Assembly: GCA_030684405.1 (NCBI GenBank)
Contig: JAUXYA010000011.1
Location: 124,001 to 188,000, forward strand
Direction of reading: 5' to 3'
DNA: 64,000 nt
Origin: Burkholderiales bacterium
Lineage (GTDB): Bacteria; Pseudomonadota; Gammaproteobacteria; Burkholderiales; SG8-41
The notes under the pieces were generated by a model that was given only the letters and a program-made list of their open reading frames with translations, searched no databases and was not told where the DNA came from. Each line of letters begins with the position of its first letter. Within the stretch, counting starts at the first letter, position 1. The translations under genes and the position numbers were made by a program. Positions 7,280 to 36,847 of this stretch are shown piece after piece.

Positions 7280-7336
7280 TCATCGCTTGGACGGGTACGG
7301 ACGCAACATTCCGGTCAGCGCATAACGTCCAGCGAA

Positions 7337-15896: not shown

Positions 15897-17132
15897 ATGA
15901 CCACCGCCAGCTACGAAAACGCCGCCACTGCGGCCCTGCCCTCCTCCGCCCCGCGCATCCTGCAGCAGATGCTCGCCCTCGTAGACTTCGAGGATGCCGC
16001 GCGCCGCGGCATCCCGCGCCCGATCTTCGGTTATATCAACGGCGGTTCCGAAACCAATGCCTCGCTGCACGACAACCGCGCGGTGTGGGACGAACTGCAG
16101 TTCATCCCGAAATCGCTGGTCGACACCGGCGACCGCGGCCTCAAAACCACGCTGATGGGCACGCAGTACGATCTCCCCTTCGGCATACCGCCGATGGGCG
16201 GCACCGCGATGGCCTGCGCCGACGGCGACGTGGCACTCGCCCGCGCGGCTGTGCGCAACAACATTCCGATGGTGGTCAGCGGCGCAGCGCTCACTTCGCT
16301 CGAACGTATCAAGCAGGAAGGCAAAACCGCCTGGTTCCAGGCCTACCTGCCGGGCGACGACAACGTGATCAAGGCACAGGTCTCCCGCGTCGAGAAGGCC
16401 GGCTACGACACGCTGGTGGTGACCGTCGACGTCCAGGTGCTCGCCAATCGTGAGAACAACGTGCGCACCGGCTTCAGCACGCCGCTGCGCCCCAGCCTGC
16501 GCCTCGCCTGGGACATGGCCATCCGCCCGCGCTGGTGCCTGTCGATGCTGAAACACACGCTCACCCACGGCATGCCGCATTTCGAAAACATGGGTCCGCG
16601 CGTGCCGATGATCTCCGCGCTCAACCGCGAGGCCGGCCGCCGCGACCGCCTGTCCTGGCAGCACATCGACATGATCCGCAAGATGTGGAAAGGCAAGCTG
16701 GTGCTCAAAGGCATCCTCGATCCGCAGGACGCCGCGCGCGCGCGTGATGCCGGCGTCGACGGCGTGATGGTGTCCAATCACGGCGGCCGCCAGCTCGACG
16801 GCGCAGTAAGCCCGCTGCGCATGCTGCCCGGCGTCAAAGCCAATGCCGGCAACATGGCGGTGATGATGGACAGCGGCATCCGCCGCGGCACCGACGTGCT
16901 GAAAGCACTCGCACTCGGCGCCGACTTCGTCTTCGTTGGCCGCCCCTTCCTCTACGCCATCTCCATCGGCGCCGAACACGGCGCGCAGCACGTCATCAAC
17001 CTGCTGCGCAGCGAGCTGATGACCGACATGGCGCTGATCGGCGTGAACTCGCCGAAGGAGATGAAGCCGGAACTGCTGCTGGATCTGCGGGCTTACAACT
17101 GGCAGACGGCGGGCGTTAAAAATAACCAATAA
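15897..17132 (+). CDS. FMN-dependent alpha-hydroxy-acid oxidizing protein (L-lactate dehydrogenase/glycolate oxidase family)
   Basis: A 411-residue TIM-barrel flavoenzyme. The FMN/active-site signature SNHGGRQLDG is present (about residue 294), with the conserved histidine as catalytic base and the arginine for the substrate carboxylate. DSGIRRGTDVLKALALGA and VGRPFLYA form the phosphate-binding end. The family oxidises 2-hydroxy acids such as lactate, glycolate or mandelate to 2-oxo acids. The gene stands alone, and its stop lies in the AT-rich motif at 17128-17149. Substrate unknown. A second, divergent member is at 58279-59520. Confidence 0.93.
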   Translation: MTTASYENAATAALPSSAPRILQQMLALVDFEDAARRGIPRPIFGYINGGSETNASLHDNRAVWDELQFIPKSLVDTGDRGLKTTLMGTQYDLPFGIPPMGGTAMACADGDVALARAAVRNNIPMVVSGAALTSLERIKQEGKTAWFQAYLPGDDNVIKAQVSRVEKAGYDTLVVTVDVQVLANRENNVRTGFSTPLRPSLRLAWDMAIRPRWCLSMLKHTLTHGMPHFENMGPRVPMISALNREAGRRDRLSWQHIDMIRKMWKGKLVLKGILDPQDAARARDAGVDGVMVSNHGGRQLDGAVSPLRMLPGVKANAGNMAVMMDSGIRRGTDVLKALALGADFVFVGRPFLYAISIGAEHGAQHVINLLRSELMTDMALIGVNSPKEMKPELLLDLRAYNWQTAGVKNNQ

Positions 17133-17149
17133 AAACAAATACTTATTTA
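17128..17149. promoter_or_regulatory. AT-rich border motif, copy at hydroxyacid oxidase 3' end
   Basis: AATAAAAACAAATACTTATT is the clearest copy of a motif that recurs in this GC-rich window at gene borders (for example 19482-19500, 35141-35160, 36823-36847, 57124-57150). Function unknown. Confidence 0.4.
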
Positions 17150-18169: not shown

Positions 18170-19351
18170 TCAAACAGCGCCGGCCGCCTTGAGCGCTGAA
18201 ATCTCGGCCGTGCTGTAGCCCAGTTCTGCGAGGATGATTTCGCTGTGCTCACCCACCGCCGGCACCGGATCCATCCGCGCCTCGAAGCCTTCAAAAGTCG
18301 CCGCCGGCAACAAGGCCGGTATCGGCCCGGCCGGCGTTTCCACTTCTCTCCAGCGCTTGCGCGCCTGCAACTGCGGATGATCCCAGACCTGGTCCGGCGT
18401 GTTGAGCCTTGAGTTGGCGATGTCCGCCGCATCCAGTTTCGCCACCACTTCCTCGCTGGTCCACGGCGCGAAAGTATTCTCGATCAAGGCCACCACCTCG
18501 GCGCGTGCCGCCGTGCGCTTGGTGTTGTTGTCGTAACGCGGGTCCTTCGCCAGCTCCGCCCGGCCCAGCACCTTGTCGCAGAAGCTCACCCACTCGCGTT
18601 CGTTCTGGATGCCGAACAGCACATCGCCGTCCTTGGTGCGAAAACGGCCGTAGGGCACGATGGTCGCGTGGTCCGGACCGCTGCGCCGCGGTGCCTTGCC
18701 CGAGTAGTGCGTGTAATACAGCGGATGCCCCATCCACTCCGCCATGGTCTCGAACATGGTGAGGTCGATATGCGCGCCCTCACCCGTGCGCTCTCGCGTG
18801 TAGAGCGCGGCAAGAATCGCGGCATAGGCATGCAGCCCGGTGCCGATGTCGGTGATCGAAATGCCAACCTTGGCCGGCGACTCCGGCGTACCGGTCAGCG
18901 ACAGCACCCCCGCCTCGCCCTGCACCAGCAAGTCGTAGGCTTTCTTTTTCGAATACGGCCCGGTCGTGCCGTAACCCGACACATCGCAGACGATCAGTTT
19001 CGGATGTTTGGCGCGTAGCTCGGTCGCACCCAGCCCCAGACGTTTCGCCGCACCCGGCGCCAGGTTCTGGATGAACACATCGGCCTCGGCCATCAGCTTC
19101 GCCAGGATGTTCTTCGCCTCGGGATGCTTCACATCCAGCGTCAGGCTTTCCTTCGAACGGTTGAGCCAGACGAAATAGGCCGACTGGCCTTTGACAGTCT
19201 GGTCATAGTCGCGCGCGAAATCGCCGACCTTCGGACGTTCGATCTTGATCACCCGCGCGCCGATATCGGCGAGCTGGCGGGAACAGAACGGCGCGGCGAC
19301 GGCTTGTTCGAGGGCGATGACGGTGATGTTGGATAAGGGAAGTTTGGACAT
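18170..19351 (-). CDS. CaiB/BaiF family (class III) CoA-transferase
   Basis: 393 residues from the ATG at 19351, where MSKLPLSNITVIALEQ begins the family N-terminus; the open frame upstream to 19459 runs through repeat DNA. The catalytic aspartate region lies near residue 165-170, in a segment rich in YDLLVQGEAGVLSLTG. The family moves CoA between organic acids. The first 25-55 codons of this gene are repeated as truncated scars at 24689-24769 and 25727-25891, and 130 bp upstream lies an AT-rich motif. Acceptor acid unknown. Confidence 0.92.
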   Translation of the reverse strand: MSKLPLSNITVIALEQAVAAPFCSRQLADIGARVIKIERPKVGDFARDYDQTVKGQSAYFVWLNRSKESLTLDVKHPEAKNILAKLMAEADVFIQNLAPGAAKRLGLGATELRAKHPKLIVCDVSGYGTTGPYSKKKAYDLLVQGEAGVLSLTGTPESPAKVGISITDIGTGLHAYAAILAALYTRERTGEGAHIDLTMFETMAEWMGHPLYYTHYSGKAPRRSGPDHATIVPYGRFRTKDGDVLFGIQNEREWVSFCDKVLGRAELAKDPRYDNNTKRTAARAEVVALIENTFAPWTSEEVVAKLDAADIANSRLNTPDQVWDHPQLQARKRWREVETPAGPIPALLPAATFEGFEARMDPVPAVGEHSEIILAELGYSTAEISALKAAGAV

Positions 19352-19387
19352 GGATTGAATTTTCAGCACCACCCACCCCGCTTTTAG

Positions 19388-19460
19388 TCCCCTCTCCCCA
19401 AATGCTTTTGGGGAGACAAGGGCACACTTGAAGCGTAGCAGGGCTAGGGTGAGGGGCAAC
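19388..19460. repeat. GC-rich intergenic repeat (CCCTCTCCCC type), copy 1
   Basis: TCCCCTCTCCCC...GGGGAGA forms a hairpin, followed by the shared tail that contains GCACACTTGAAGCG and GGGTGAGGGGCAAC. The same unit recurs at 24792, 38079, 39525, 40003, 41573 and 45166. Confidence 0.85.
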
Positions 19461-19481
19461 AGCAGGATTTATAGATAAATC

Positions 19482-19500
19482 AATAAAAACAAATAGTTAC
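19482..19500. promoter_or_regulatory. AT-rich border motif upstream of CoA-transferase
   Basis: AATAAAAACAAATAGTTAC, preceded by ATC as at 36823-36847; 130 bp upstream of the CoA-transferase start and inside direct repeat copy 1. Confidence 0.35.
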
Positions 19501-19602
19501 AGAGTATCGCACAGGCCAGCAGGATTTTACTCAATACGATGAGTATTTTTACTCAATGAATTTGAAGTCTCCTCGTTTTCTTGAGCCATTTAGAAGTAGA
19601 GG

Positions 19603-20577
19603 TTATGGGGATTTTGTCATGGCATAAGGAACCGGGGGAAGCCTGCCCAGCGCCGTGTGGGGTCGCTTATGGTTGTAGTGATGCAGCCACTCCTGCGTCA
19701 GCGCCCGGACTTCCTCCAGGCTGTTGAACACGTAGCAGTCGAGCACTGCCGTGCGGTAAGTCCGATTGAATCGTTCGATGTAGGCGTTCTGGGTCGGCTT
19801 GCCCTTCTGGATGAACTGCAGGGCGATGCCCCGTTCAGCCGCCCATGTGGCGAGTTCACGGCTGATGAGCTCAGGCCCGTTGTCCATCCGCAGGCGTTGC
19901 GGTTTACCCCGCAGTTCGACCAATTCGGTGAGGGCCCTGACCACGCGTTTTGCCGGCAGGCTGGTATCGATCTCGACCCTGAGTGCCTCGCGGTTGAAGT
20001 CATCCAGGACATTGAAGGTTCTAAAACGCCGACCGTTCCACAGCGCATCAGCCATGAAGTCGATCGACCAGGTTTGATTGGGTCCTTCCGGCACCAACAA
20101 GGGCTCGCGGATTCGGCCAGGCAGCCTTTTCTTGCCCCGGCGCTTGAAGTTGAGCTTGAGCTCGCAGTAGACCCGCCACAGCCGCGTCTTGCCGCAGGGC
20201 CGGTTGGCGCCCAGGGTGTCATACAACAGACCAAAGCCATCCCGACCATTGTCCTGCATATGCCCCTGGATGGCCGCAATCACCGGACCGTCATCGCGGA
20301 CCACCGCCCGGTAGTACCGCTGGGAGCGGGACACTCGCGCCACCTGACACGCCTTCCGCTCCGACACCCCGTGCGCCTCATGCATGTGCGCCACCAATTC
20401 CAGCCTCTTCGCCGGGGCTAAAGCTTTTTTGCAACAGCATCCTGAAAGGCGTTGTGCACCAACGCCAGCTCGGCATACATCTTCTTGAGTCGGGCATTCT
20501 CCTTTTCCAACTCCCGCATCTTGGCCAGTTGCGGCACGTCCATGCCGGCATACTTGGATTTCCACTGGTAGTAGCAA
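19603..20577 (-). CDS. IS3-family transposase, OrfB (DDE integrase)
   Basis: The catalytic domain has the rve/DDE triad: D in SIDFMAD, D in RMDNGPE and E in AYIERFNRTYR, 35 residues after the second Asp as in IS3. An N-terminal HTH_21-like segment precedes it. The meaningful part begins near CCCKKALAPAKRLEL; the residues before that are the antisense-like shadow of orfA in the -1 frame, so the product is made as an OrfAB fusion by frameshifting at the slippery A run near 20420-20430. Confidence 0.93.
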   Translation of the reverse strand: MLLPVEIQVCRHGRAATGQDAGVGKGECPTQEDVCRAGVGAQRLSGCCCKKALAPAKRLELVAHMHEAHGVSERKACQVARVSRSQRYYRAVVRDDGPVIAAIQGHMQDNGRDGFGLLYDTLGANRPCGKTRLWRVYCELKLNFKRRGKKRLPGRIREPLLVPEGPNQTWSIDFMADALWNGRRFRTFNVLDDFNREALRVEIDTSLPAKRVVRALTELVELRGKPQRLRMDNGPELISRELATWAAERGIALQFIQKGKPTQNAYIERFNRTYRTAVLDCYVFNSLEEVRALTQEWLHHYNHKRPHTALGRLPPVPYAMTKSP

Positions 20578-20684
20578 GCGTCAGATATGCCGTACTTCCG
20601 GCATGTCTCGGCTACCTTTGCACCAGCCTCCACCTCGCGCAGGATCGACACGATCTGGGTCTCGCTAAACTTTGATTTCTTCAC
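20418..20684 (-). CDS. IS3-family transposase, OrfA
   Basis: 88 residues with an N-terminal helix-turn-helix (KFSETQIVSILREVEAG; CRKYGISDACYYQWKSKY) that binds the IS ends, and a C-terminal leucine-zipper-like helix (LAKMRELEKENARLKKMYAE). It ends ...GCA AAA AAG CTT TAG; the A AAA AAG run is a classical -1 slippery site leading into orfB. Confidence 0.93.
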   Translation of the reverse strand: MKKSKFSETQIVSILREVEAGAKVAETCRKYGISDACYYQWKSKYAGMDVPQLAKMRELEKENARLKKMYAELALVHNAFQDAVAKKL

Positions 20685-20881
20685 GTAGAGCTCCTTTCAG
20701 GGAAAACTCTACTTCAAACCGGATCAAATTAACGGGGAGACTTCAAATTCACAACATCTTAACCGCGCAGCGCATGCGCAAAGTTCCAGGTCTTGTTGAC
20801 GATTTGCTGGGAGGCGTTGGACATTTTGGTATTCGTTGTAATTGTGGAACGGGACTTTAACCTGTCCCACAATCCATTCTC

Positions 20882-21928
20882 TCAGGTAAGCAATCCGTTG
20901 ATTTTTTGTTTCGCATCGGCCAGCGTATCCGGCAGCCGGGCAACACCGCCCTTGAGCCGTTTGCGCCAGCCCGGGCCGCGCGCATTGATGTTTTCCACTG
21001 CGAGTTCGATGTCGCCAGGCCTGTCCTGCATCAACACCTCGATCATTTCCGCAGCCTGCTGGCGATCCTTGGCGGCCTTGGCCTGGAAAGCAACCGGCCG
21101 GTCCATGCTGACGATCAGCTTGTGCAGCGCGAAGCGCGCTGGATCGGCCACCTTCACCATCGTCGCACCACCGTTGATGATGGGCACATCCACGGTTGCT
21201 TCAAGCAAATAATCCAGAAACTCCAGCGGCTGTGCCGATGCCTTCAGCCGCGGGATGCGCACGGGCGCGCCAGTGCGCCTGCCACGCGCCGGTGTCAGCA
21301 AATCAACGCGCAGCGTCTTGCCGCGCACGACAAACGACGTTTCAGGCCGGCGCGGATCAAGCCCCGGCGCCGGCAGGAAACCCATGTTGAGGCTTTCCAG
21401 TGTCGCCGGAAGATCGGCCTCGACTTCGCCGACAGCCACTTCCAGCACCGGCCTGGCGAGGATGTCGATATCCTGCGTGGAAAGGCTCGATTGCCAGCGC
21501 ACACCCAGCACATTGCCGAGCGCGACATAGGCGTGCGTACCCACCAGCACGCCGCCCAGCCTGAACACGCCCGCGTTGCCCAGCCCGGAAATCACCTTGG
21601 CCGACACCGTGTCGGTCATCATGGCGCCACCCTGGCGCAACATCGCGCACAGCCGCGAAATGTTCGATTCGACCTCCACCACCGCGGCACGGTCTTTTTG
21701 GTAGGCCTCGATCACCGCGCGTGTCGCCGGCGTGTCGGGTCCCACCGAATATTCGCGTTGTCCGGAAGCCGAGGCGCTGGTTTTGAAATACCAGTAGTTC
21801 GCGCCTGACACGTGCTTGGTCGCAAAGCTGCCCTTCAGCGTCGAAAACGAGCGCGCCGCCTCGTACGCCGCGAGGCGTTCCGACAGTTCGGCGTAGAGCG
21901 TCTGGATTTCCTGGGGTTGCCTTTGCAT
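20882..21928 (-). CDS. GSU2403-family nucleotidyltransferase-fold protein
   Basis: 348 residues. The region VGTHAYVALGNVLG...STQDIDILA (about residues 130-155) fits a nucleotidyltransferase fold with a G-S/T-x-AY helix and a D-I-D metal-binding pair. A second acidic position follows in LRVDLLTP. This matches GSU2403-type NTP_transf_8 proteins, which belong to the broad AbiEii/MNT-like group often found in mobile regions. The start is 9 bases from a palindrome (TTATACCT/AGGTATAA). No partner antitoxin gene is evident on this strand. The biological role is unknown. Confidence 0.8.
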   Translation of the reverse strand: MQRQPQEIQTLYAELSERLAAYEAARSFSTLKGSFATKHVSGANYWYFKTSASASGQREYSVGPDTPATRAVIEAYQKDRAAVVEVESNISRLCAMLRQGGAMMTDTVSAKVISGLGNAGVFRLGGVLVGTHAYVALGNVLGVRWQSSLSTQDIDILARPVLEVAVGEVEADLPATLESLNMGFLPAPGLDPRRPETSFVVRGKTLRVDLLTPARGRRTGAPVRIPRLKASAQPLEFLDYLLEATVDVPIINGGATMVKVADPARFALHKLIVSMDRPVAFQAKAAKDRQQAAEMIEVLMQDRPGDIELAVENINARGPGWRKRLKGGVARLPDTLADAKQKINGLLT

Positions 21929-21936
21929 GCAGCGAA

Positions 21937-21968
21937 TTATACCTAATATAAAATTAAATAAGGTATAA
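21937..21968. promoter_or_regulatory. Inverted repeat at start of nucleotidyltransferase gene
   Basis: TTATACCT (21937-21944) and AGGTATAA (21961-21968) are perfect 8-bp arms with a 16-base AT-rich spacer, directly upstream of the nucleotidyltransferase start. Spacing of about two helical turns between arm centres fits a dimeric repressor operator. No regulator gene adjoins. Confidence 0.5.
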
Positions 21969-22074
21969 ATTATATCAACTCATTGTTTTAAATGTATTTT
22001 ATAAAGCAGCCAGAATCCATCATATCCGCTCCGCCACCGCCCACTCGTCAGCCGTGCAGCCCTCTTTCAACTAG

Positions 22075-22095
22075 GCATTTAATGATGTTAAATGC
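22075..22095. promoter_or_regulatory. Perfect palindrome upstream of RloA/RloB-like pair
   Basis: GCATTTAA-TGATG-TTAAATGC is a perfect 8-bp inverted repeat with a 5-base centre, ending 46 bases before the GTG start at 22142. The surrounding sequence is AT-rich and promoter-like. It is a candidate operator for the two-gene module. Confidence 0.5.
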
Positions 22096-22141
22096 AATAA
22101 TAAACAATATTTCGTTTAAACTCTAAATTAAAGGCGCCATT

Positions 22142-23329
22142 GTGCTTCATAACTACGCGTTTTCAAATTTTCAGTCCTTCCGCGAGCGGACAGAGATTGA
22201 TTTCACCCAATCGCGGAAAGTGCCTCTCACCGACTGGATGACTGACGCGCCCACTGGCGAGCGCGTTTCAAAACTCATGGCCGTGATCGGCCCCAATGCG
22301 AGCGGCAAGACCGCCCTCATCAAACCTGCAGCTTTTCTGGCCTGGTTTATTGGCCAGTCTTTCCAAAACAAGCCCGAAGCTGGCATCCCGGTCACACAGC
22401 ACTTTGCGGCAACAGGCGAACCTTCGGAATTCGAAGTCACCGCCGATTTCGACGGCAAGCTCTGGCGCTATGTCCTGCGCTGCACACCGGAACGGGTTCT
22501 GCATGAGGCGCTCTACGTCAAGCGCGAACGCTTTGGCTATGTCTTCATTCGGGATTGGGAGGCATCAAGCGCCAGCTATTCGGTCAAACAGCAAGATTTC
22601 GGACTGGCTGCACAGGAAGCCCGCAAAGTGCGGCCGAATGCCTCCCTGATTTCGACTGCCGCGCAATACGGCGTACCGCTGGCACAAAAAATAGCTTCGG
22701 CTACCACCCATGTAATGACCAATGTAAACATTTTGGGCCGCATACCAATGGGCGAACAGGCGCTGACTGTAGCCGCCAGACATTTTTCCGAGCACGCGCC
22801 GCAACGTGCCCACATGGAACGTTTTTTGTCGAGCTGGGATTTCGGCTTGAGCGGCGTAGAACTGCAAGAAGTAACCGTCAACAACCCCCAAGAACCTGAC
22901 CAGAAGATATGGATGCCCTTCGGCAAACACCTGATCGACAACAAGGCCTATACCCTGCCGTTTATTTATGAGTCGAGCGGCACGCAGGCGGCATTCGTAC
23001 AACTGGCCCGTTTGCTGTACACGCTTGAAATAGGCGGCCTCGCCATCATTGACGAATTTGAAAACGACCTGCACCCGCACATGCTGGAACCGATACTGGG
23101 TCTGTTTTCCAATCCGGAAACAAATCCCCGTCATGCGCAACTGCTGTTTACCTGCCATGCGATCGAAGTGCTCAATCTTGTTGGCAAATCACAGGTCATG
23201 CTGGTCGAAAAAGATCAGAACTGCGAAAGCAGTGCATGCCGGATGGATGCCGTCCAGGGCATCCGCAGCGATGACAATTTCTACGCCAAATACATGGCAG
23301 GCGCCTATGGCGCTGTGCCGAACTTCTAA
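22142..23329 (+). CDS. AAA-family ATPase, RloA-like (ABC/SMC-type head domain)
   Basis: 395 residues, GTG start. Walker A GPNASGKTA (about residues 50-58), signature-like YESSGTQAAF (about residue 278) and Walker B LAIIDEFEND (about residue 301), then a switch histidine in LLFTCHAIEVLN. The N-terminus LHNYAFSNFQSFRERTEIDF is typical of AAA_15/AAA_21 ATPases such as RloA and AbiLi-like proteins, which act in phage defence with a partner nuclease. The partner is the RloB-like TOPRIM gene 11 bases downstream. It has no membrane segments, so a cytoplasmic ATPase sensor is likely. Confidence 0.88.
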   Translation: MLHNYAFSNFQSFRERTEIDFTQSRKVPLTDWMTDAPTGERVSKLMAVIGPNASGKTALIKPAAFLAWFIGQSFQNKPEAGIPVTQHFAATGEPSEFEVTADFDGKLWRYVLRCTPERVLHEALYVKRERFGYVFIRDWEASSASYSVKQQDFGLAAQEARKVRPNASLISTAAQYGVPLAQKIASATTHVMTNVNILGRIPMGEQALTVAARHFSEHAPQRAHMERFLSSWDFGLSGVELQEVTVNNPQEPDQKIWMPFGKHLIDNKAYTLPFIYESSGTQAAFVQLARLLYTLEIGGLAIIDEFENDLHPHMLEPILGLFSNPETNPRHAQLLFTCHAIEVLNLVGKSQVMLVEKDQNCESSACRMDAVQGIRSDDNFYAKYMAGAYGAVPNF

Positions 23330-23340
23330 AACAAGTTCTT

Positions 23341-23841
23341 ATGCGTATCTGGAAAGCTCAACGTACCTTGCTGATCGTTGGTGAGGGCGCAGTGGAGGAA
23401 GCTTTTCTGACTCATGCCAAAACTCTCTATGTGCCGCGTGGATGTGGCCTGAGCGTCAAGGTCAGCAATGCCCACGGCAAGGGGGCCAGTCACGTGGTCG
23501 AATGGACCAGACGGCAAATAGACAATATTCAATATGACAGTGTCGCAGTCTTGCTGGATACCGATACCGACTGGACACCCACCGTGGAAAAACGGGCTCG
23601 GCAGAAAAAGATAACCGTCATGGAATCAACACCCTGTATCGAGGCACTGCTGCTCAGGATGCTCGGCCAGAACAGCAGCGGAGACAGCCGCATATTGAAG
23701 AAACGCTTTGCCCCTTACGTCAACAACGCACCAACCGACCCTACCCAATACGCAAAGCATTTCGGCGACCCAATCTTGCAGGCGAGCCGGAAAACTGAAC
23801 CGGCGATTGATGCACTGCTGACCTTGCTGAATCAGCGGTAA
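23341..23841 (+). CDS. RloB-like TOPRIM-fold protein
   Basis: 166 residues, shorter than the usual 200 or so of RloB. The N-terminus TLLIVGEGAVEEAF carries the TOPRIM glutamate (GEG). The central LLDTDTDW is the DxD metal site and MESTPCIEALLL matches the conserved RloB S-x-PC-x-E motif. These identify a TOPRIM nuclease-like effector. It lies directly after the RloA-like ATPase with 11 bases between, so the two probably form one module. An ATP-regulated defence function that damages nucleic acid is an inference from the family. Confidence 0.8.
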   Translation: MRIWKAQRTLLIVGEGAVEEAFLTHAKTLYVPRGCGLSVKVSNAHGKGASHVVEWTRRQIDNIQYDSVAVLLDTDTDWTPTVEKRARQKKITVMESTPCIEALLLRMLGQNSSGDSRILKKRFAPYVNNAPTDPTQYAKHFGDPILQASRKTEPAIDALLTLLNQR

Positions 23842-23852
23842 TCATTACGCAT

Positions 23853-24692
23853 TTACCCAACACCCAGTATCCACCCCTCCCGCTCCGCCACAGCACGTTC
23901 GGCCTCACTCAAGGGCGGGTTCCAGTAACGCCCCAACTCACCCCGCCCGCTCATCTCCGCCAGCCAGCGCGCGACGGCATAGGCGTCATTCTCATCAGCC
24001 GTTTGGCACACAGCGTCAGCCTCCGGATAACGCTTGCGGAAGATCGACGGGTAAACCTCGGCGATCACCGACTTGCCCGCAGGCGGCTGCCAGCCGTCGA
24101 AGGGCCAGAAGTGCACACGGTCGCCCACCGCCGCGCGGATGTGCCGCAGCCAGGGAATGCCGGCATGCGTGGATTTCGCCACCGAGCCCTGCACGTCGAA
24201 CTGGAACACGCTTTTCGCCGAGGAAGTCCAGCGTTCGCAAAGTCGAAACTCGCGGCTGTCGCCGATGCGCGTGCCCGGCGGCGGCGCCTTGCCGTCGCGG
24301 GCCAGACTGCCGTCGCGTACAAAATCGACATAGACGAAATCGCCATCCGTCGGCCAGTGATGCTGAAAATCGTCCAGGAACTGCGGCCAGTCCGTCAGGC
24401 CGTAGCGGCGGAAATAGCTGTCGGGGAAGGAAAAGCCATGGTCGATGCCGGCGATGAAGGTTTCACTGCGCTCGACACGCTCGATCAGCCAGTGCGCAAT
24501 CTCCTTGCGCGTCCAGTAGCGTGGCAGGGACCCGGTGACACCTGCCGCGCGCGCCGCGGCAATCGCCGGTGTCGGCACCTGCGTGGGCAACCCGCCTGGT
24601 GCGGTGGCATAAACCTGCAACCCCTTGAGGCGGGAGGTCGGCACCTCGGCACCGGAATAGTCGATGCCGATGAAACAATCGAAACCGCTCAT
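23853..24692 (-). CDS. DUF429-like (RNase H-fold) protein
   Basis: 279 residues. The N-terminus FIGIDYSGAE is the first strand and acidic residue of an RNase H-like fold. A second acidic site lies in FIAGIDHGFSFP and a C-terminal one in ENDAYAVARWLAEM, as in DUF429 proteins. The ATG at 24692 overlaps the TGA of a truncated CoA-transferase N-terminus (24689-24769) as ATGA, and no separate ribosome site is obvious, so translation would depend on that leader. No function is established for this family. Confidence 0.75.
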   Translation of the reverse strand: MSGFDCFIGIDYSGAEVPTSRLKGLQVYATAPGGLPTQVPTPAIAAARAAGVTGSLPRYWTRKEIAHWLIERVERSETFIAGIDHGFSFPDSYFRRYGLTDWPQFLDDFQHHWPTDGDFVYVDFVRDGSLARDGKAPPPGTRIGDSREFRLCERWTSSAKSVFQFDVQGSVAKSTHAGIPWLRHIRAAVGDRVHFWPFDGWQPPAGKSVIAEVYPSIFRKRYPEADAVCQTADENDAYAVARWLAEMSGRGELGRYWNPPLSEAERAVAEREGWILGVG

Positions 24693-24769
24693 ACCACGGC
24701 CGCTTTCGGGGCGGCGACAGCTTGTTCGAGGGCGATGACGGTGATGTTGGATAAGGGGTGTTTGGACAT
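24689..24769 (-). pseudogene. Truncated 5' end of CaiB/BaiF CoA-transferase gene (scar 2)
   Basis: The ATG at 24769 begins MSKHPLSNITVIALEQAVAA, differing from the intact gene at 19351 by one residue in the first 21, then leaves the homology and stops after 26 codons. The stop overlaps the start of the DUF429-like gene. The region upstream of the ATG is also homologous to the intact gene's upstream region, so promoter, start codon and first 21 codons were duplicated together. Confidence 0.88.
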
Positions 24770-24959
24770 GAGCGCTAAACCAAGTGTTCTATCCCCTCTC
24801 CCCACCTCCTGGTGGGGAGACAAGGGCACACTTGAAGCGAAGCAGGGTTAGTGTGAGGGGCAACAACAGAATTATAAATTTATATTTAAAAACAATTACT
24901 TATGAATATACAAAGAAGCCCGCAGGATTTTACTCAATACCTTGAGTATTTTTACTCAA
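24711..24959. repeat. Direct repeat, copy 2: 5' end of CoA-transferase gene plus upstream region
   Basis: Second copy of 19293-19556, same orientation and order: first CoA-transferase codons, a GC-rich repeat, an AT-rich stretch and the segment GGATTTTACTCAATAC...GAGTATTTTTACTCAA. The two copies bracket 5.15 kb that includes the IS element, the nucleotidyltransferase, the RloA/RloB-like pair and the DUF429-like gene. Confidence 0.85.
24792..24865. repeat. GC-rich intergenic repeat, copy 2
   Basis: TCCCCTCTCCCC ... GGTGGGGAGACAAGG followed by GCACACTTGAAGCG and GTGAGGGGCAAC. It is nearly identical to the unit at 19388 and part of direct repeat copy 2. Confidence 0.85.
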
Positions 24960-24983
24960 CGCCCGCGCAGCCATCAGAACAAA

Positions 24984-25730
24984 TCAAAGCGCCGAATTTA
25001 ACTCAGGCATGCCATCCCAAATCTGCCCTTGATATTCGCGGCCGTTCGCGCCCTTCGACCGTTTCTGCCCATCGGCACCCCAAGTCCCCCACTGCTTGAA
25101 AAAGAACGCGACATCATCGCGGTCGCATTGCCGCTTGATGCCATCGACCCATTCCGGTTTCATCGGTCGCGCCTTGCGTCCCGATTCGCCGCCGACGATG
25201 ACCCACTGAATGCCTGTCAGATCGACTTCCCCCAGATCCTCCAGCAAGGGTTCCACGGACAAGAATCGGATGAAGACATCAACCTCACGCAACACGTCGA
25301 TGCGCGGCACGCCGTATTTCCGGTTTTCCACCGACACGCCGAGCCAGACATTTGGCGGCACTTCGACGCCCCTGCAGAACTTCGCCATGCGTGCAGCGCG
25401 CTTGGTCAGCACCTGAAAAGTATGTTGCTTGGCCTCCGCCATGACATCAAAAACCCGACGGATGTAATCAAAAGAAACCTTTTCATGGAACAGGTCCGAC
25501 ATCGAATTGACGAAATACACCGTCGGCTTCCGCCGCTCCAATGGCTCGGAAAGACGCTCCGGCATCAGGGTCAGCTGGAAACCGTTCTCGTAGCCGTGTA
25601 ACCCCATGGCTTGCAGCCGCTTGGCCATGAATTCTGCATAACAGTGCTTGCATCCCGGCGACAGCTTAGTACACCCGATTGTCGGATTCCAGGTCTGCTC
25701 GGTCCACTCTATCTTGCTCTGTGTGCTCAC
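24984..25730 (-). CDS. DUF5131 / phage Gp37-Gp68 family protein
   Basis: 248 residues with the family start KIEWTEQTWNPTIGCTKLSPGC and a cysteine cluster C-x6-C-x2-C (GCTKLSPGCKHCYAE) resembling a radical-SAM-type or metal-binding site. The downstream motifs FVNSMSDLFHE, VLTKRAARM, LSVEPLL and VGGESG are characteristic. The start is GTG at 25730, and that GTGA overlaps the stop of a truncated CoA-transferase N-terminus (25727-25891). The family occurs in phages and accessory regions; its reaction is unproven. Confidence 0.85.
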   Translation of the reverse strand: MSTQSKIEWTEQTWNPTIGCTKLSPGCKHCYAEFMAKRLQAMGLHGYENGFQLTLMPERLSEPLERRKPTVYFVNSMSDLFHEKVSFDYIRRVFDVMAEAKQHTFQVLTKRAARMAKFCRGVEVPPNVWLGVSVENRKYGVPRIDVLREVDVFIRFLSVEPLLEDLGEVDLTGIQWVIVGGESGRKARPMKPEWVDGIKRQCDRDDVAFFFKQWGTWGADGQKRSKGANGREYQGQIWDGMPELNSAL

Positions 25731-25891
25731 TTTTTATCGTAATCAAGCGCAAAGTCACCGACCTTCGGCCGTTTGATCTTGATCACCCGTGCGCCGAGGT
25801 CGGCGAGCTGGCGCGAGCAGAATGGCGCGGCGACGGCTTGATCGAGGGCGATGACGGTAATAGCAGAAAGCGGAAGCTTGGATTGAGACAT
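25727..25891 (-). pseudogene. Truncated 5' end of CaiB/BaiF CoA-transferase gene (scar 3)
   Basis: 54 codons from the ATG at 25891. Residues such as ITVIALDQAVAAPFCSRQLA and VIKIKRPKVGDFALDYD align with residues about 9-50 of the intact enzyme, with a handful of substitutions, and then a stop follows. It is more diverged than scar 2. Its stop overlaps the GTG start of the DUF5131 gene. The catalytic part of the enzyme is absent, so this can only be a leader or remnant. Confidence 0.88.
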
Positions 25892-25944
25892 GAAACAGCA
25901 GTTTGAGAAGTTGAAAAGAACGGAAATTTAAACTACTTTAATAA

Positions 25945-26883
25945 TCACGTCGCATGCACAGAAAATAAAAATTGTGTCCCGACTTTCCTACTCCCTGATT
26001 CTGCCGAGATTTCACAATTCAAGCGTCGCTGACGTGGAGTGGCCTTGGTGCCAGCGTCAACGACAAGCTCGATCTTATTGATGACACCACCACACATGAT
26101 GAATTCACCATCTGAAACGACAGCCTCAATCGGCAAGTAATCCTTTTGCATTGCCTCCAAAAGGAATGCCGGCACGATTCCATTTTCAAAATTAAAAAAG
26201 AGCGGCCACTTCCGAATTACCGCCTTTCCTCCCCCGCCCCACTCCGCCAGCCCTATAGCAATGTTTCGCAATGGCATCTTTGAAAGCAGCGCGTCATCAT
26301 CTATGGCTTTTAGCAAATTCAGTCGATTAATCAAAACATACCGAGATACAGCGAATCCCGTCCTAAACGCACAAATCTCCTCAATGGAAACTGGCGCCTG
26401 CTTTTTGGTAAGCAATTGAGACAACGCTTTCTCTGAAAGCAGCAGTAGCGGGGAAAATCGCTCAGTCTCCTGCTCGAGCTCCTTCACCAGCTCTTCCGCA
26501 CCCATCTTCCGCTTCGAATCCACGTTAAGGCGCAAACCAAATTCAGAGAGTCGGAATGCGAAGGAGTGAATCAATTCGTGAGCAATTGTATTTCGTAATC
26601 TGGTAGGCAAGGGCCGCGCGGAATCTTCATTTTCCACATCGCCCGCATCGACTGAATAAGTTTCAGCGTCGATCAACACCGCCCACTCGGCGCCATCGCT
26701 CGCGGATTTGGCATCGGATTGCACCGATGCCAGCATTCCTTCGACGAGTAACGGCTGGATAATTAGTCGTGCATGAAAACGCACGAGAAGTCTGCGTATG
26801 GCTACAAAACCTAGTTCGTCGGAAACTTCGTTTGAAATATCGACGCAGACGCGCGCGATCTGAGTGAGTGCGCTGGGGGTCAT
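25945..26883 (-). CDS. ImmA/IrrE-type zinc metallopeptidase-like protein
   Basis: 312 residues. The zinc motif HELIHSF (HExxH, about residue 102) is followed about 35 residues later by an acidic stretch (ELEQETERFSPLLLL) that supplies a candidate third ligand, as in ImmA/IrrE peptidases. The C-terminal half is uncharacterised. No DNA-binding domain is fused. The gene starts 17 bases after the stop of the 164-residue gene at 26901-27395, so the two form a likely operon in which the small protein may be substrate or inhibitor (inference). Confidence 0.72.
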   Translation of the reverse strand: MTPSALTQIARVCVDISNEVSDELGFVAIRRLLVRFHARLIIQPLLVEGMLASVQSDAKSASDGAEWAVLIDAETYSVDAGDVENEDSARPLPTRLRNTIAHELIHSFAFRLSEFGLRLNVDSKRKMGAEELVKELEQETERFSPLLLLSEKALSQLLTKKQAPVSIEEICAFRTGFAVSRYVLINRLNLLKAIDDDALLSKMPLRNIAIGLAEWGGGGKAVIRKWPLFFNFENGIVPAFLLEAMQKDYLPIEAVVSDGEFIMCGGVINKIELVVDAGTKATPRQRRLNCEISAESGSRKVGTQFLFSVHAT

Positions 26884-26900
26884 GATTCAGCGAACGACGA

Positions 26901-27395
26901 CTACGATTGTTCGCGGAGTGCGTCGCGCTCAATCCTGGCCAATTTATCGGCCGTCAACTTGTCACGCTCACGATTAAACTGAGCGGAAATACCTTTGATT
27001 CCGCTGATATCGTATTTCCGAAGTTCGACAAGCAGACGGGAGCGTTGTTTTGCCGAACGCGATCGATTCCGATCAATAAAAGTTCGGTGATGATCGCGAA
27101 TGCGCCCCTTCTCGACCGCAGGAATGTATTGTCGGAAGATCCGGCGGCATTCTGACTCAAATTCGCGTTGAGTAGCTTCTGACTCAGCTACAACTTCAGC
27201 CATCGAACTGGTAGAAGCACCGGCCACAACCTCTTCAGTGTGATCGTCAAACAGCATCTGCTCTTTAGCATAAGGGTTCTGGAGCAAACGTGCAGTTTCG
27301 ATCACGTTGTCCAGCAACTGCAATTTAGCGTACGGGTTCCCCAAGCGCCTGAGCGCATCGCTTTGAGTCTCTTTTTTTGCCGGGGATTTCGTCAT
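26901..27395 (-). CDS. Hypothetical protein with NPYAK repeats, partner of metallopeptidase gene
   Basis: 164 residues, charged, with no membrane segment. The N-terminal region contains two similar motifs (LGNPYAKLQLLDN and LQNPYAKEQMLFDD). The C-terminal half is Arg/Lys/Asp-rich and mostly helical. No family was recognised. It is the upstream member of a two-gene unit with the ImmA/IrrE-like gene (17-base gap). Codon use is less GC-biased than in the flanking housekeeping genes, consistent with acquisition. Confidence 0.6.
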   Translation of the reverse strand: MTKSPAKKETQSDALRRLGNPYAKLQLLDNVIETARLLQNPYAKEQMLFDDHTEEVVAGASTSSMAEVVAESEATQREFESECRRIFRQYIPAVEKGRIRDHHRTFIDRNRSRSAKQRSRLLVELRKYDISGIKGISAQFNRERDKLTADKLARIERDALREQS

Positions 27396-27466
27396 GGGTT
27401 CATTCTAGGGCATACGCAATATTGCGGACAATTACAGCGTAGTCGACCGTAAGAGCCCTAATAAAT

Positions 27467-27640
27467 TCACTTTTCCCGCCTCACACCCTTGAACGGCGCC
27501 TTGTCCGCCTTCTGGTCCATGAAACGGCCGCTGTCATCGTTGCGCTTCACCCAGCGTTGGTTGTGGGGATTGAAGACCTGGGTGCGGTCGCGGACCGCTC
27601 CGACGCGCCGGTTGTCCCCGGCAGGTGCATTTTTAGCCAT
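27467..27640 (-). CDS. 57-residue basic protein of a conserved small-protein family
   Basis: 57 residues from the ATG at 27640, starting MAKNAPAGDNRRVGAVRDRT and containing FNPHNQRWVKRND, SGRFMDQK and FKGVRREK. The pattern (two Asn/Arg-rich motifs and a Gly-Arg-Phe-Met-Asp core) resembles short proteins found widely in bacteria next to restriction or toxin-antitoxin genes. The coding frame is supported by the conserved motif spacing. Function unknown; possibly nucleic-acid-binding given its basic charge. Confidence 0.65.
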   Translation of the reverse strand: MAKNAPAGDNRRVGAVRDRTQVFNPHNQRWVKRNDDSGRFMDQKADKAPFKGVRREK

Positions 27641-27705
27641 GATTTATGCCTCTAAGCTATTGATATAAAACAAATTAATTGACATTAACCAACAGTTGAT
27701 GCATA

Positions 27706-27743
27706 GTTTACAAAAATAAGTTTTAAAAGTCAATTTTGTAAAC
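27706..27743. promoter_or_regulatory. Palindromic operator upstream of XRE-ImmA gene
   Basis: GTTTACAAAA (27706-27715) and TTTTGTAAAC (27734-27743) are perfect 10-bp arms with an 18-base AT-rich spacer, ending 12 bases before the ATG at 27756 and just before the GGAGG ribosome site. Self-repression by the helix-turn-helix protein is expected from the family. Confidence 0.65.
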
Positions 27744-27755
27744 CACGGAGGTCAC

Positions 27756-28820
27756 ATGATCAGCGAACGGCTCAAACAGGCACGCAAGGCTTCAGGCCTG
27801 TCTCTGCGCGCGCTTGCCGAACGCGCGCAAATCACCGCGATGGCGATTTCCAAGTACGAGACCGGGAAATCCACCCCCTCGTCCGGCGTTTTGCTCAACT
27901 TGGCCAAGGCGCTGGGCGTACGCACCGAATACTTCTTCCGCCCGGTCAAGGTGGAAATGCACGAGGTCAACTACCGCAAGCACTCAAAACTGGGCGTCAA
28001 GGTTCTGGATCACATCAAGGGCGACGCCATCGAGCAGCTTGAACGTTTCATTGAACTGGAAGAGTTGCTGCCCAACGGCCCGGTCGCACCATTCAAGCTG
28101 CCCGCCGGCCTGCCCGCACATATCAATACGCTGGACGAGATCGAAGACATCGCCCTGAAACTGCGGGAAAAATGGCAGCTCGGCATCGACCCCATCCCGG
28201 TGGTGACCGACATGCTCGAAGAACGCGGCATCAAGGTCATCCAGTCGGACGCCATTCCCGGCGACTTCGACGGCCTCGCCTGCAATGTGAATGGCATTCC
28301 CGTCATTGCCGTCAGCGCGCAGGCGCCCGGCGACCGCCAGCGCTTTACCATGACCCACGAACTGGGTCATCTGATGCTGCAGGGACGCATCTCACCTGAA
28401 TTGGATATCGAAGCCGCCTGCAACCGCTTCGCCGGCGCCTTCCTCGCGCCCGCTTCCGAGGTGCGCAAAGAACTGGGCGAAAAACGGGACTGGCTGGAAC
28501 CGAAGGAACTCGCCGCCCTGAAACAGGCCTACGGCCTCAGCATGCAAGGCTGGATGCACCGCGCCAAGGACCTCGGCATCCTCCCCGGCTTTGCCTACGT
28601 CGAGATGCGCAAGTTCTTCTCGGCACAAGGTTGGGTCAAGACCGAACCCGGCGAGCAATACCCCAAGGAACGCCCGCAACTCTTTGAACAACTGGTGTAC
28701 CGCGCGCTCAGCCAGGACCTGATCAGCGAATCCAAGGCCGCGGAACTGCTGCGCAAGCCGCTGTCGCAATTCCAAAAAGAACGGAACATGCAGGGTGACG
28801 CAGCGACTCCTGATCAGTGA
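27756..28820 (+). CDS. XRE-family regulator fused to ImmA/IrrE metallopeptidase
   Basis: 354 residues. An N-terminal helix-turn-helix of the XRE family (residues about 1-65; LSLRALAERAQITAMAISKYETG) is followed by a zinc peptidase domain with FTMTHELGHLMLQ (HExxH, about residue 198) and a downstream acidic ligand region (EAACNRFAGAFLAP). A GGAGG ribosome site precedes the ATG. The PIN gene overlaps its last 26 bases. This is the classical COG2856 antitoxin-like arrangement in which peptidase cleavage relieves repression. Confidence 0.88.
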   Translation: MISERLKQARKASGLSLRALAERAQITAMAISKYETGKSTPSSGVLLNLAKALGVRTEYFFRPVKVEMHEVNYRKHSKLGVKVLDHIKGDAIEQLERFIELEELLPNGPVAPFKLPAGLPAHINTLDEIEDIALKLREKWQLGIDPIPVVTDMLEERGIKVIQSDAIPGDFDGLACNVNGIPVIAVSAQAPGDRQRFTMTHELGHLMLQGRISPELDIEAACNRFAGAFLAPASEVRKELGEKRDWLEPKELAALKQAYGLSMQGWMHRAKDLGILPGFAYVEMRKFFSAQGWVKTEPGEQYPKERPQLFEQLVYRALSQDLISESKAAELLRKPLSQFQKERNMQGDAATPDQ

Positions 28821-29298
28821 CGCCAATATCCTCATCGACATGGAAAAAGGTGGCGTCACGCGCCAGATGTTCCAGCTCGATGCGGTCTTTGCCGTTCCCA
28901 ACACCCTCTACGAGGACGAACTGCGGGAAGAACACCCGCAGTTGCCCGAACTCGGGCTGCGGACGCTGGAATTAACCGAAGAAACGGTTGCCTGGGCGGC
29001 CGAACTGATCGTCCGTTACAGGAAAACCGGTGCCAGCAGCAATGACCTGTTGGCGCTGGCCCTTGCCCGACAGGAACAAACCACCCTGCTCACCGGCGAC
29101 GGCAAGCTGCGCGGCGTTGCCGAAGCCGAAGGCATTACCGTCCACGGCACTGTCTGGCTGATGAAACAACTGATGGATGCCGGAATCCTGACTGTGCCGC
29201 AGGCTGCTGCAGCCTACGACCACATGAAAGCAGCGCGTAGCCGCCTGCCCTGGAACGAAGTCGAACAGCAATTACACGCCCGCTGTTTTAAACGCTAG
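28795..29298 (+). CDS. PIN-domain nuclease (toxin-like)
   Basis: 167 residues, GTG start at 28795 inside the end of the XRE-ImmA gene. PIN features: LLISDANILIDME (first Asp), a second acidic position near YEDELREEH, and SSNDLLALALA plus LLTGDGKLR as the later acidic/turn motifs. PIN proteins of toxin-antitoxin modules are RNA-cleaving. Its 3' end converges with the hsdS stop, overlapping by 11 bases. Confidence 0.82.
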   Translation: MTQRLLISDANILIDMEKGGVTRQMFQLDAVFAVPNTLYEDELREEHPQLPELGLRTLELTEETVAWAAELIVRYRKTGASSNDLLALALARQEQTTLLTGDGKLRGVAEAEGITVHGTVWLMKQLMDAGILTVPQAAAAYDHMKAARSRLPWNEVEQQLHARCFKR

Positions 29299-31054
29299 CC
29301 ACCTCAGGCGCAGCGACGGCCCGCTCGACGATGGCGTCGGCGAGACGGATCTGGGTGGTCTGGGCTTCGGCGAGGCGGGCCTTGAGGGCATCGCAGAGGG
29401 CCATCAGTTCTTCGACTTTGGCGACGATGCGGTGTTGCTCAGCAGCCGGCGGCAACGCAATCGCAAACCCTCTCATATCCCCAACATTCACATGCTTTGC
29501 ACCAATTCCTTTGTGCAGTTCCAGCAGAGCCTCAAGTGATCGAGGAGAAGATATTGCTAGACGCAAAAACTCTGAGTTGAGCCGGCTCGACGGCCTAAAA
29601 AGCATTACGCGTTGCCCTAAACAACAGCGGAGCCCTTCGGGCAATACCACTGACTCTCCGACACTCCCCTCTCTCGCGAAAACTATGTCCCCCTTATCCG
29701 GAGAAATCCGGGCAATTCGTTCAGAGAATGTATCTGCGTCAACATATCGAAATTTCGATTCGATAAGGGCACCTTGTTTAAACGAATTTGTATCAAGGCA
29801 CAAAAAACCTGAATCAGTGAATTTTGGGGTTGAATGTGGACAATCCACGATGACGTTGAAAAGAGAATCTAAACGTACCCATTGCCAACCTAAAGGCGCC
29901 ACAAATCGCCGCTCTTCTTCAGAAATATCGGGATATAGCTTTTGTCTGCCAATGCGCCCCTCTGCCACCAAGGCTTCTTTTTCACTAGCAATTGCCGCCA
30001 ACAGCGCATTGGCCGGTTCCTCAATTGGGTTTTGGGACACAAGCTTCCCCATGACCGCAAGCTGAAGGATGGTGTGCTTGAGCTGGTCGATGCTGTGTTC
30101 GGTGGTGAACAGGGTATCAAAGTGCTCGGCGATGCGGTTCCAGGCTGCGGCAAATTCCTGGGCGGATTCGACGCGCGTCAGCGTGCCAAGCAGGGTTTCG
30201 ACCAGGGTCTGGTGGGCTTCGATGCCAATGCCTTGCTGCTGCTCCAGTTGGTCGCAAAGCGCCATGAGTTCGTCTACTTTGGCAACGATGCGGCGTTGTT
30301 CGGCGAGAGGGGGCAAACCAATGACTGACTCGGTAATTTGCGCGCCCGAAAGATGATCAACCGTTGTATATGCCTTAACGCCCTGCAGTTTCCGCAGTCG
30401 AGTCTGAAGGCTGTCGGCGATAAAGCGCTTGCCCAAGTTTTCTGTAAAAAAAATCAAGCGGGACACCCGTTGATTTAATAGCGCCCTGCCATTCGCCCAG
30501 GGAGACACGCGGAACTCGCCATCCATACTAATTAGATAATCTCCTTGCTCAACGATAAATTCATCCCTGTATTCACCAGAGTAATAAGTTCCCGTAAACG
30601 GCTGCCCTACGTCACGTATACGAATCAGTGGGAGTCCTTCCGCGCTTTCGTTGAAATATCGCGACTTAAAGGCAAATCCAGCTTGAGAAAATGCGATATC
30701 GCCAAGTCTGACGAAAACCCAACCCATAGGCAGTTCGAAGTCTTTTTCCGCCTCTACAATGTCAGGCAGTGGCTTTACTCTCTTGACCACCCCTTCTTTA
30801 ATTAACCGCACTTTTTCTGCTGCAATTCTTTTCAGAAGGGTAGTCGCCGGTTCGTCGTTTGGGTCTTGCGGCAACAGCTTTCCGCGAACGGCCAACTCCA
30901 AAATCAGCGTGCGCAGTTTATTTACGCCGTAAGCCTCCAGCGGACCGCCACTGCCCCGCCCCGCCGTGGACTTGACCAGCAGCGCCGAGGTCCAGAGGTC
31001 GAGATGGTCAGTCACTGGATTCCGGTTAGTTCCGAAAATACGCGGATCGTTCAC
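29288..31054 (-). CDS. hsdS: Type I restriction enzyme specificity subunit HsdS
   Basis: 588 residues with two target-recognition domains separated and ended by similar helical spacers: PPLAEQRRIVAKVDELMALCDQLE (about residue 245) and PPAAEQHRIVAKVEELMALCDALK (about residue 555), the repeat typical of HsdS. The N-terminus carries a family-typical YGVNKLRTLILELAVRGKL block. Its ATG overlaps the hsdM stop (ATGA). HsdS sets the DNA sequence recognised by the methylase and restriction subunits. Confidence 0.95.
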   Translation of the reverse strand: MNDPRIFGTNRNPVTDHLDLWTSALLVKSTAGRGSGGPLEAYGVNKLRTLILELAVRGKLLPQDPNDEPATTLLKRIAAEKVRLIKEGVVKRVKPLPDIVEAEKDFELPMGWVFVRLGDIAFSQAGFAFKSRYFNESAEGLPLIRIRDVGQPFTGTYYSGEYRDEFIVEQGDYLISMDGEFRVSPWANGRALLNQRVSRLIFFTENLGKRFIADSLQTRLRKLQGVKAYTTVDHLSGAQITESVIGLPPLAEQRRIVAKVDELMALCDQLEQQQGIGIEAHQTLVETLLGTLTRVESAQEFAAAWNRIAEHFDTLFTTEHSIDQLKHTILQLAVMGKLVSQNPIEEPANALLAAIASEKEALVAEGRIGRQKLYPDISEEERRFVAPLGWQWVRLDSLFNVIVDCPHSTPKFTDSGFLCLDTNSFKQGALIESKFRYVDADTFSERIARISPDKGDIVFAREGSVGESVVLPEGLRCCLGQRVMLFRPSSRLNSEFLRLAISSPRSLEALLELHKGIGAKHVNVGDMRGFAIALPPAAEQHRIVAKVEELMALCDALKARLAEAQTTQIRLADAIVERAVAAPEVASV

Positions 31055-34871: not shown

Positions 34872-35235
34872 TAACGGCGGTCTCGACTGAAAGCCGGTTC
34901 AATGAAGGATGCGGGGATTGTAGCCGGATTCACCAAAATGCCTTGCGAATCATCGACCTCCACGATGCAGCTTGGCTGCTGGGCACGAACTTAAAATAAG
35001 CAGTGCCGTTATTTTACGTTCGGGACTTATCGTAAATTAACGCTACGTCTTCGCCGTACAGCCCTTATACGAAAAGTAACCTGTAACAAGGAAGGCAACC
35101 GCTTCCTTGCGATAGTTTCGGCCGCCCTCTGAAAATCATCATAAGTACTTGTTTTTATTATATTTTGATGGCTGCCGCAGCCTGTCAAAAATATGTTCGC
35201 TGACGGAGGATCAGCTTGGTCGAGATCAGGGCGAG
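34872..35235. other. Intergenic region upstream of hsdR, AT-rich part
   Basis: 364 bp between the restriction operon and the AbiEii-like stop. No gene is supported; the short frames present look random. It contains an inverted repeat TTTACG (35013-35018) / CGTAAA (35031-35036) and an AT-rich motif at 35141-35160, and presumably the hsdRMS promoter. Confidence 0.5.
35141..35160. promoter_or_regulatory. AT-rich border motif (minus orientation) upstream of hsdR region
   Basis: Read on the minus strand it is TAATAAAAACAAGTACTTAT, one base from the 17128 copy over its core. It lies between the AbiEii-like stop and the hsdR start. Confidence 0.35.
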
Positions 35236-36731: not shown

Positions 36732-36746
36732 GTGCCAAATTGTAGG

Positions 36747-36762
36747 CAGATATTATTATCTG
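36747..36762. promoter_or_regulatory. Palindrome upstream of AbiEi-like gene
   Basis: CAGATA-TTAT-TATCTG is a perfect 6-bp inverted repeat with a 4-base centre, 15 bases before the antitoxin start. A second nearby repeat, TGTC...GACA, overlaps it on the upstream side. It is a candidate autoregulatory operator. Confidence 0.5.
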
Positions 36763-36822
36763 TCAACATTTAGACACATCACCAAGGGATGTAATATGAG
36801 ATTAATCTCTTTGGGTTATCCT

Positions 36823-36847
36823 ATAAATATTTGTTTTTATTGATATT
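36823..36847. promoter_or_regulatory. AT-rich border motif (minus orientation) at acyl-CoA dehydrogenase 3' end
   Basis: On the minus strand it reads ATCAATAAAAACAAATATTT, matching the 19482 copy. It lies between the acyl-CoA dehydrogenase stop and the AbiEi-like start. Confidence 0.35.

Follow-up and report, generated by a model that had tools for sequence, protein, structure and literature searches.

How do truncated copies of the beginning of one gene come to lie, in the same orientation, directly in front of unrelated accessory genes? The question is raised by a stretch of 64,000 nucleotides from a Burkholderiales bacterium (GCA_030684405.1, contig JAUXYA010000011.1, positions 124,001 to 188,000; hereafter the window), in which an intact CaiB/BaiF family III coenzyme A (CoA)-transferase gene, referred to below as CaiB, is accompanied by two truncated copies of its start, called scars 2 and 3. 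A first-pass annotation had read these copies as an array of cassettes formed by repeated integration or recombination at the 5' end of CaiB. We find instead that the interval between CaiB and an acyl-CoA dehydrogenase (ACD) gene is a hotspot, with constant flanks and an accessory content that varies among strains, and that the scars are probably the debris of serial, partly illegitimate recombination between alleles of this one defence hotspot. The features on which the argument turns are the following:

36849–38015, minus strand: ACD, the left flank of the hotspot (domain scan and synteny).
18170–19351, minus strand: intact CaiB/BaiF family III CoA-transferase, the right flank of the hotspot (Pfam CoA_transf_3, E 7e-114).
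24689–24769, minus strand: scar 2, an open reading frame (ORF) of 26 codons, a chimera of CaiB codons 1–21 and an hsdS tail, with a joint of 15-bp near-identity.
24772–24959, minus strand: duplicate of the region upstream of CaiB, about 190 bp, adjoining scar 2 (repeat search).
23852–24729, minus strand: hsdS tail and DUF429-like gene (the gene at 23853–24692), matching locus L042 7698–8566 at 86.8% DNA identity.
25727–25891, minus strand: scar 3, an ORF of 54 codons, about 52 of them from CaiB.
24984–25730, minus strand: DUF5131 gene (Pfam, E 7e-108).

The ATG of the intact gene was read at 19351 on the minus strand, and sequence reading together with a repeat search confirmed the two 5'-truncated copies that the first pass had placed on the same strand at 24769 and 25891. 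In the repeat search CaiB was aligned with scar 2 over 64 nt at 94% (19289–19352 with 24707–24770) and with scar 3 over 146 nt at 83% (19203–19348 with 25737–25882), and its upstream region recurred in blocks of 82 nt at 88% and 42 nt at 93%. BLASTN of the whole of CaiB against the island returned a match of 136 nt with 84.6% identity (E 7e-39) and one of 63 nt with 93.7% identity (E 1.4e-22); the CaiB similarity of both scars is far beyond chance. When the flanking genes (n = 32) were compared with the island (19460–36820) at E < 1e-3, long matches came from CaiB only, the remaining two being just 26 and 35 nt long. The portion of the upstream block at about 19415–19455 is not specific to CaiB, because it belongs to a genome-wide dispersed repeat; an intergenic repeat of the GGGGAGAGGGG type occupies 19383–19460 on the plus strand and has many copies in the same genome and in relatives. 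Both scars are open and, as had been described, the stop of each overlaps the following gene by 4 nt: scar 2 runs from the ATG at 24769 to a stop at 24691–24689 that overlaps the ATG of the DUF429-like gene at 24692, and scar 3 from the ATG at 25891 to a stop at 25729–25727 that overlaps the GTG of the DUF5131 gene at 25730.

Relatives were compared by mapping the window's proteins, and the 12 same-genus loci with enough upstream sequence were counted as resolved. ACD and CaiB are uninterrupted in 8 of these 12 (L040, L041, L043, L046, L047, L048, L049 and L068), with gaps of 2–108 bp, and in six of the eight the two genes overlap as TGATG or TAATG. The four occupied loci are the window, with 17.5 kb between the flanks; L039, with an AAA_14/DUF4143 ATPase; L042, with hsdRMS, a DUF429-like gene and two more genes; and L045, with a CaiB remnant and an NTP_transf_8 gene on a contig that ends before ACD. 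In the other genera of the family ACD was in view at 21 loci, three of which have gaps above 800 bp (L152, L153 and L169) and the remaining 18 gaps of at most 353 bp; the inserts in these genera include Fic, endonuclease/SNF2, methylase, a DUF4325 ATPase and an HSDR_N fragment. The content is rich in defence genes, both in the window (HsdRMS, AbiE, AbiL-like, RmrA-like and DUF5131) and in the inserts of relatives (endonuclease, methylase, HSDR_N and Fic), and some of the inserted genes belong to no recognised family. Repeated recombination beside the CaiB start is supported by the accessory genes that differ among relatives and by the further CaiB remnant of L045; targeting of the CaiB 5' end as a cassette unit is not.

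Scar 2 gives the clearest view of a joint. The window matches the hsdS tail and DUF429-like gene of L042 (86.8%) from 24729 on, starting inside the hsdS end, and the CaiB match runs to 24707, so that 23 nt are common to the CaiB and hsdS matches. At the joint 14 of 15 bases are common to the two genes (GCCGTCGCYGCGCCG, which codes for AVAAP); no other pair among the 53,682 compared reached 14, and scar 2 and hsdS are in the same reading frame there. Scar 2 is a chimera of a CaiB start and an hsdS end. The window's own hsdS retains its 3' end, 96% identical to that of L042, and the hsdS end is therefore present twice in the island.

The label DUF429 is that of the first pass: the gene gave no Pfam match and one NCBIfam match far under the cut-off. 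In L042 it follows hsdS, whose stop overlaps its GTG (L042 7735; the same gene as L131), and among its relatives an upstream ORF of at least 60 codons ends with the same 4-nt overlap in 6 of 11. The frequency of this overlap, together with the hsdS upstream in L131 and L042, suggests that the gene may have an accessory role linked to restriction-modification (RM). Such 4-nt stop overlaps by an upstream ORF were seen at the DUF429-like genes of L131, L132, L135, L136, L137 and L138.

Because hsdS overlaps the DUF429-like gene in L042 and L131 without CaiB, the overlap at scar 2 is inherited from hsdS and need not reflect the proposed translational coupling to the scar peptide; for this gene, such loci are what the first pass had named as refuting its reading. 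The same evidence bears on the idea that the scars are selected leader cassettes, in which a CaiB start and its promoter are retained to drive and couple an accessory gene. Both scars are open and overlap the next gene by 4 nt, as such leaders would, but the 6 of 11 relatives show the same overlap from another ORF without CaiB, and a search for sigma-70-like promoters in 24600–26000 found none, where shuffled sequences averaged 0.8. The supposed capture of a CaiB promoter was not borne out, the earlier remark that the accessory genes have no ribosome site is a judgement by eye only, and we regard selected leaders as very improbable. A reading in terms of cassette capture and coupling is not needed.

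At scar 3 the neighbouring gene points to a lost partner. An ORF of at least 84 codons ends at most 60 nt upstream of the DUF5131 relatives in 12 of 18 cases, and the two such ORFs that were checked were both TcmP. PADLOC scored the window's DUF5131 protein as PDC-M30B and PDC-M41B, and the protein is a strong member of the TcmP–DUF5131 pair observed in relatives. The window differs from that pair in that no TcmP was found in its own genome, in a search whose positive control was weak (1 of 14 control genomes, none above the cut-off). The CaiB fragment of scar 3 occupies the place where TcmP would be expected.

Scars are confined neither to CaiB nor to 5' ends, for two more gene ends survive in the same island, the start of an hsdM gene and, more faintly, the end of an ACD gene:

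20759–20824, minus strand: hsdM 5'-end remnant between NTP_transf_8 and CaiB, 21 codons and then a stop.
35127–35232, minus strand: probable ACD 3'-end remnant followed by a dispersed motif, between AbiEii and hsdR.

The hsdM remnant had no match in Pfam or plasmids, and its matches came from genomes of the family: its first 20 codons are 85% identical over 20 aa to the N-termini of ORFs in L231 and L232 (genomes G004 and G031). The ORF in L231 is an N6_Mtase/HsdM_N protein, and in L232 NTP_transf_8 lies upstream of an intact hsdM-like ORF, which is the window's own order. The stretch at 35127–35232 is probably an ACD 3' remnant, if a faint one. It matches the ACD end of L042 at 71% over 113 nt, with E 1.3e-6 in the long comparison and E 4e-10 in a 401-nt stretch chosen afterwards; when coding sequence alone was used, 9 of the 11 ACD queries scored 32–50 and so outdid every one of the 20 control stretches from the same genome, whose maxima were 29–31. 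A further ACD 3' remnant was found in one of five other occupied loci tested, at 7323–7396 of L153 in another genus, where it lies between two modules (74 nt, 81%, E 3e-16; local score 72, controls at most 34).

The suggestion that CaiB fragments would recur in relatives held in a single convincing case. Self-comparison of 90 loci, duplicates included and limited to those with more than 100 bp upstream, yielded a decayed CaiB remnant in L045, which has an internal deletion and covers CaiB nt 131–259 and 350–427, and short matches in L070, L078 and L174. Short CaiB matches in L153 (27 nt) and L169 (22–23 nt) were set aside, that of L153 falling on the dispersed motif treated below. The NTP_transf_8 copy that adjoins CaiB in L045 is 96% identical in amino acids to that of the window.

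These observations can be joined in one mechanism. In the ACD–CaiB interval, alleles with different modules, many of them for defence, would be exchanged for and fused to one another. An incoming allele would recombine by homology on one side, provided by ACD, by shared hsd genes or by CaiB, and would be joined on the opposite side at short or no homology, leaving at the joint an end of the gene that had been broken there. A CaiB 5' end would then mark the place where a module once adjacent to CaiB had been fused to a different one; an ACD 3' end would be left on the opposite side, and hsdS or hsdM ends inside. Scar 2 would have arisen when an allele of the order DUF5131–spacer–CaiB was joined to one of the order hsdS–DUF429–...–CaiB at the AVAAP-coding DNA, and scar 3 when an allele with the gene at 25945 next to CaiB was joined to a carrier of DUF5131, whose TcmP partner was probably lost. 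Relative to a module, ACD remnants are found towards ACD and CaiB remnants towards CaiB, a placement that homologous joining on one side and imprecise joining on the other would give.

Such a combination, with homologous joining at one end and illegitimate joining at the other, is known as homology-facilitated illegitimate recombination (PMC3240628); it was described there from laboratory crosses, whereas here the process is inferred from old, diverged junctions. The flanks and the hsd genes supply homology in which no crossover point is readable, and the joint of scar 2, with 14 of 15 bp shared, fits the description of an illegitimate joint at a few bp of homology. The order of events and this route are inferred, and transformation is a possible path of entry.

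A rival history would be a local tandem duplication of CaiB and its neighbours within one lineage, followed by deletions and without exchange of alleles. It accords with scar 2, whose coding part, taken over its whole length, fits the window's own CaiB best (59 of 63) and is preceded by the same upstream region; shorter local matches of scar 2 to the CaiB genes of L042 and L043 reach 38 of 40. Scar 3, however, is no closer to its own CaiB (82.9%) than to 9 of 12 other same-genus CaiB genes (range 77.3–85.6%), and duplication leaves unexplained both the hsdS tail joined to a CaiB fragment and the fact that the window's ACD remnant scores up to 50 with the ACD of other species but 27 with its own. 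At 63 and 146 nt the scar sequences are too short for a tree. Because the ACD remnant is nearer to other species' ACD and scar 3 is no closer to its own CaiB, exchange is favoured, and we consider duplication unlikely.

Several observations weigh against exchange between alleles. None of the genomes examined had the donor alleles that the model predicts for scar 2 or for scar 3; that of scar 3 was sought through the gene at 25945, which was found in 1 of 74 family genomes, the window's own, and no match to the last codons of scar 3 was recognised upstream of the DUF5131 relatives. The microhomology of scar 2 is by itself only suggestive, because 2 of 60 codon-shuffled versions of CaiB also contain a match of 14 of 15, and the CaiB remnant of L045 sits at a contig end. 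As to the ACD remnant of the window, the own-ACD (27) and L048 (23) queries fail to beat the controls, with 2 of 20 control stretches scoring at least as high as the own ACD; the island contains no match to that gene at E 1e-2 or 1e-3; and the dispersed motif makes up part of the longer match. ComEC is present but is not diagnostic of competence, because 10 of 14 control genomes also carry it. Most of the sequences are draft or metagenome assemblies, and the window's genome is itself a draft of 37 contigs, which might prompt the thought of an assembly artefact. The common reading frame of scar 2 and hsdS at their joint and the remnants of the same flank genes in other assemblies argue against one, and it is the least credible of the explanations considered.

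Finally, the ACD remnants of the window and L153 start, by eye, at nearly the same ACD position, about 10 nt apart at most, which would not be expected of a random process. This would suit mobile elements that integrate site-specifically at the ACD 3' or CaiB 5' end and displace att remnants, as islands in prfC or icd have displaced the end of the gene that they entered; so would the order that both loci share, namely ACD, motif, module, ACD remnant and module. On the CaiB side each of the three remnants runs to a different point (codon 21, about codon 52 and, in L045, about codon 142), and no common core at the CaiB start, such as the first pass had proposed to look for at the scar junctions, was recognised by eye in the upstream sequences across loci. 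Among the scanned proteins of the island and of related modules there was no tyrosine or serine recombinase, only the transposase of an insertion sequence; of integron features, these proteins included no integrase and an Rfam scan of the window at gathering thresholds gave one tRNA only, no dedicated attC model having been run. A cassette unit at the CaiB 5' end finds no support in the differing remnant ends, the missing common core and the missing integrase, and we retain site-specific integration as a slim prospect because the two ACD remnant starts nearly coincide.

Defence hotspots between conserved genes are already known, so the novelty of exchange between alleles here is modest. In an E. 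coli pan-genome study (PMC10121019), defence islands integrate at hotspots between conserved genes; as here, a conserved gene pair flanks defence modules that vary among strains, and the systems are usually on prophages, integrative and conjugative elements or transposons. The ACD–CaiB interval differs in that, one insertion sequence aside, the scanned proteins include no integrase, and in the gene ends left at its joints. It may preserve readable fossils of defence-island growth without a visible integrase, in which joints between alleles leave recognisable gene ends of flanks and modules and can split partner genes, as with the DUF5131 gene and its missing TcmP. A caution for annotation also follows, in that a stop/start overlap behind a truncated gene may be inherited from a lost upstream gene.

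The rest of the island consists of these features:

19557–20751, minus strand: insertion sequence within the CaiB upstream region, with 48-nt inverted ends, an apparent CAA target repeat and rve domains; presumably of the IS3 type.
20882–21928, minus strand: NTP_transf_8 nucleotidyltransferase module (Pfam).
22142–23841, plus strand: AAA ATPase and RloB-like pair, AbiLi/AbiLii-like.
25945–27395, minus strand: two accessory genes (25945–26883 and 26901–27395) with no Pfam family.
27756–29298, plus strand: Xre-ImmA/IrrE regulator (RmrA-like) and PIN-domain gene.
29288–34871, minus strand: type I RM genes hsdR, hsdM and hsdS, with relatives between ACD and CaiB in L042.
35236–36731, minus strand: AbiEi/AbiEii toxin-antitoxin pair.

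Likenesses to type I RM loci are the association of hsdRMS with RmrA-like and PIN genes, the succession of hsdS and the DUF429-like gene, and NTP_transf_8 adjoining hsdM; the window differs in splicing pieces from at least two such modules.

The motif beside the ACD remnant, an AT-rich element of about CAATAAAAACAAATACTTATAA, is a more novel lead than the hotspot scars. It has 111 copies with at most two mismatches in the window's genome, against 0 in a reversed control, and lies in the window at these places:

17127–17148, 19481–19502 and 24884–24905, plus strand: motif copies.
35139–35160, 36821–36842 and 57122–57143, minus strand: motif copies.
3827, minus strand: a weaker seventh copy.

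A close pattern occurs in all 21 genomes of the genus (13–192 copies), in the single g6 genome (275), in 12 of 13 g9 genomes searched (48–490, the other having 3) and in three g7 genomes (7–11), with 0–2 copies elsewhere. In 464 kb, 46 copies exceeded 30 bits, against 0 in the reversed sequence; 21 of the 46 lie close to a stop codon of their own strand, whereas for 10 the nearby stop codon belongs to the opposite strand. The motif often follows stops directly and sometimes provides the stop, and it is found at many ordinary gene ends.

At the hotspot it follows the ACD stop, with 1–4 mismatches, in all six occupied loci with the ACD end in view, from three genera, and in 0 of 8 uninterrupted same-genus loci; it is also present between modules. 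One could suppose that it serves a few related genera as a signal for recombination or DNA uptake and that defence modules are exchanged at the ACD–CaiB interval as motif-bounded units, which would make the hotspot a single visible product of an exchange mechanism shared across the lineage. We hold this to be quite unlikely: 6 of the 8 empty loci have no room for the motif (2-bp gap), and many ordinary gene ends carry it. The sense-strand bias (21 against 10 of 46) speaks against a DNA-uptake sequence, and the DNA-uptake literature found by search was judged to concern other organisms. Its preference for the sense strand after stops would better suit a transcript-end element. Inspection by eye placed the motif after the stop of the flavin mononucleotide (FMN)-dependent dehydrogenase adjoining CaiB in 11 of the 14 loci in which that end was found, and a motif-like stretch lies within the CaiB coding region at L153 10219 and L169 10113.

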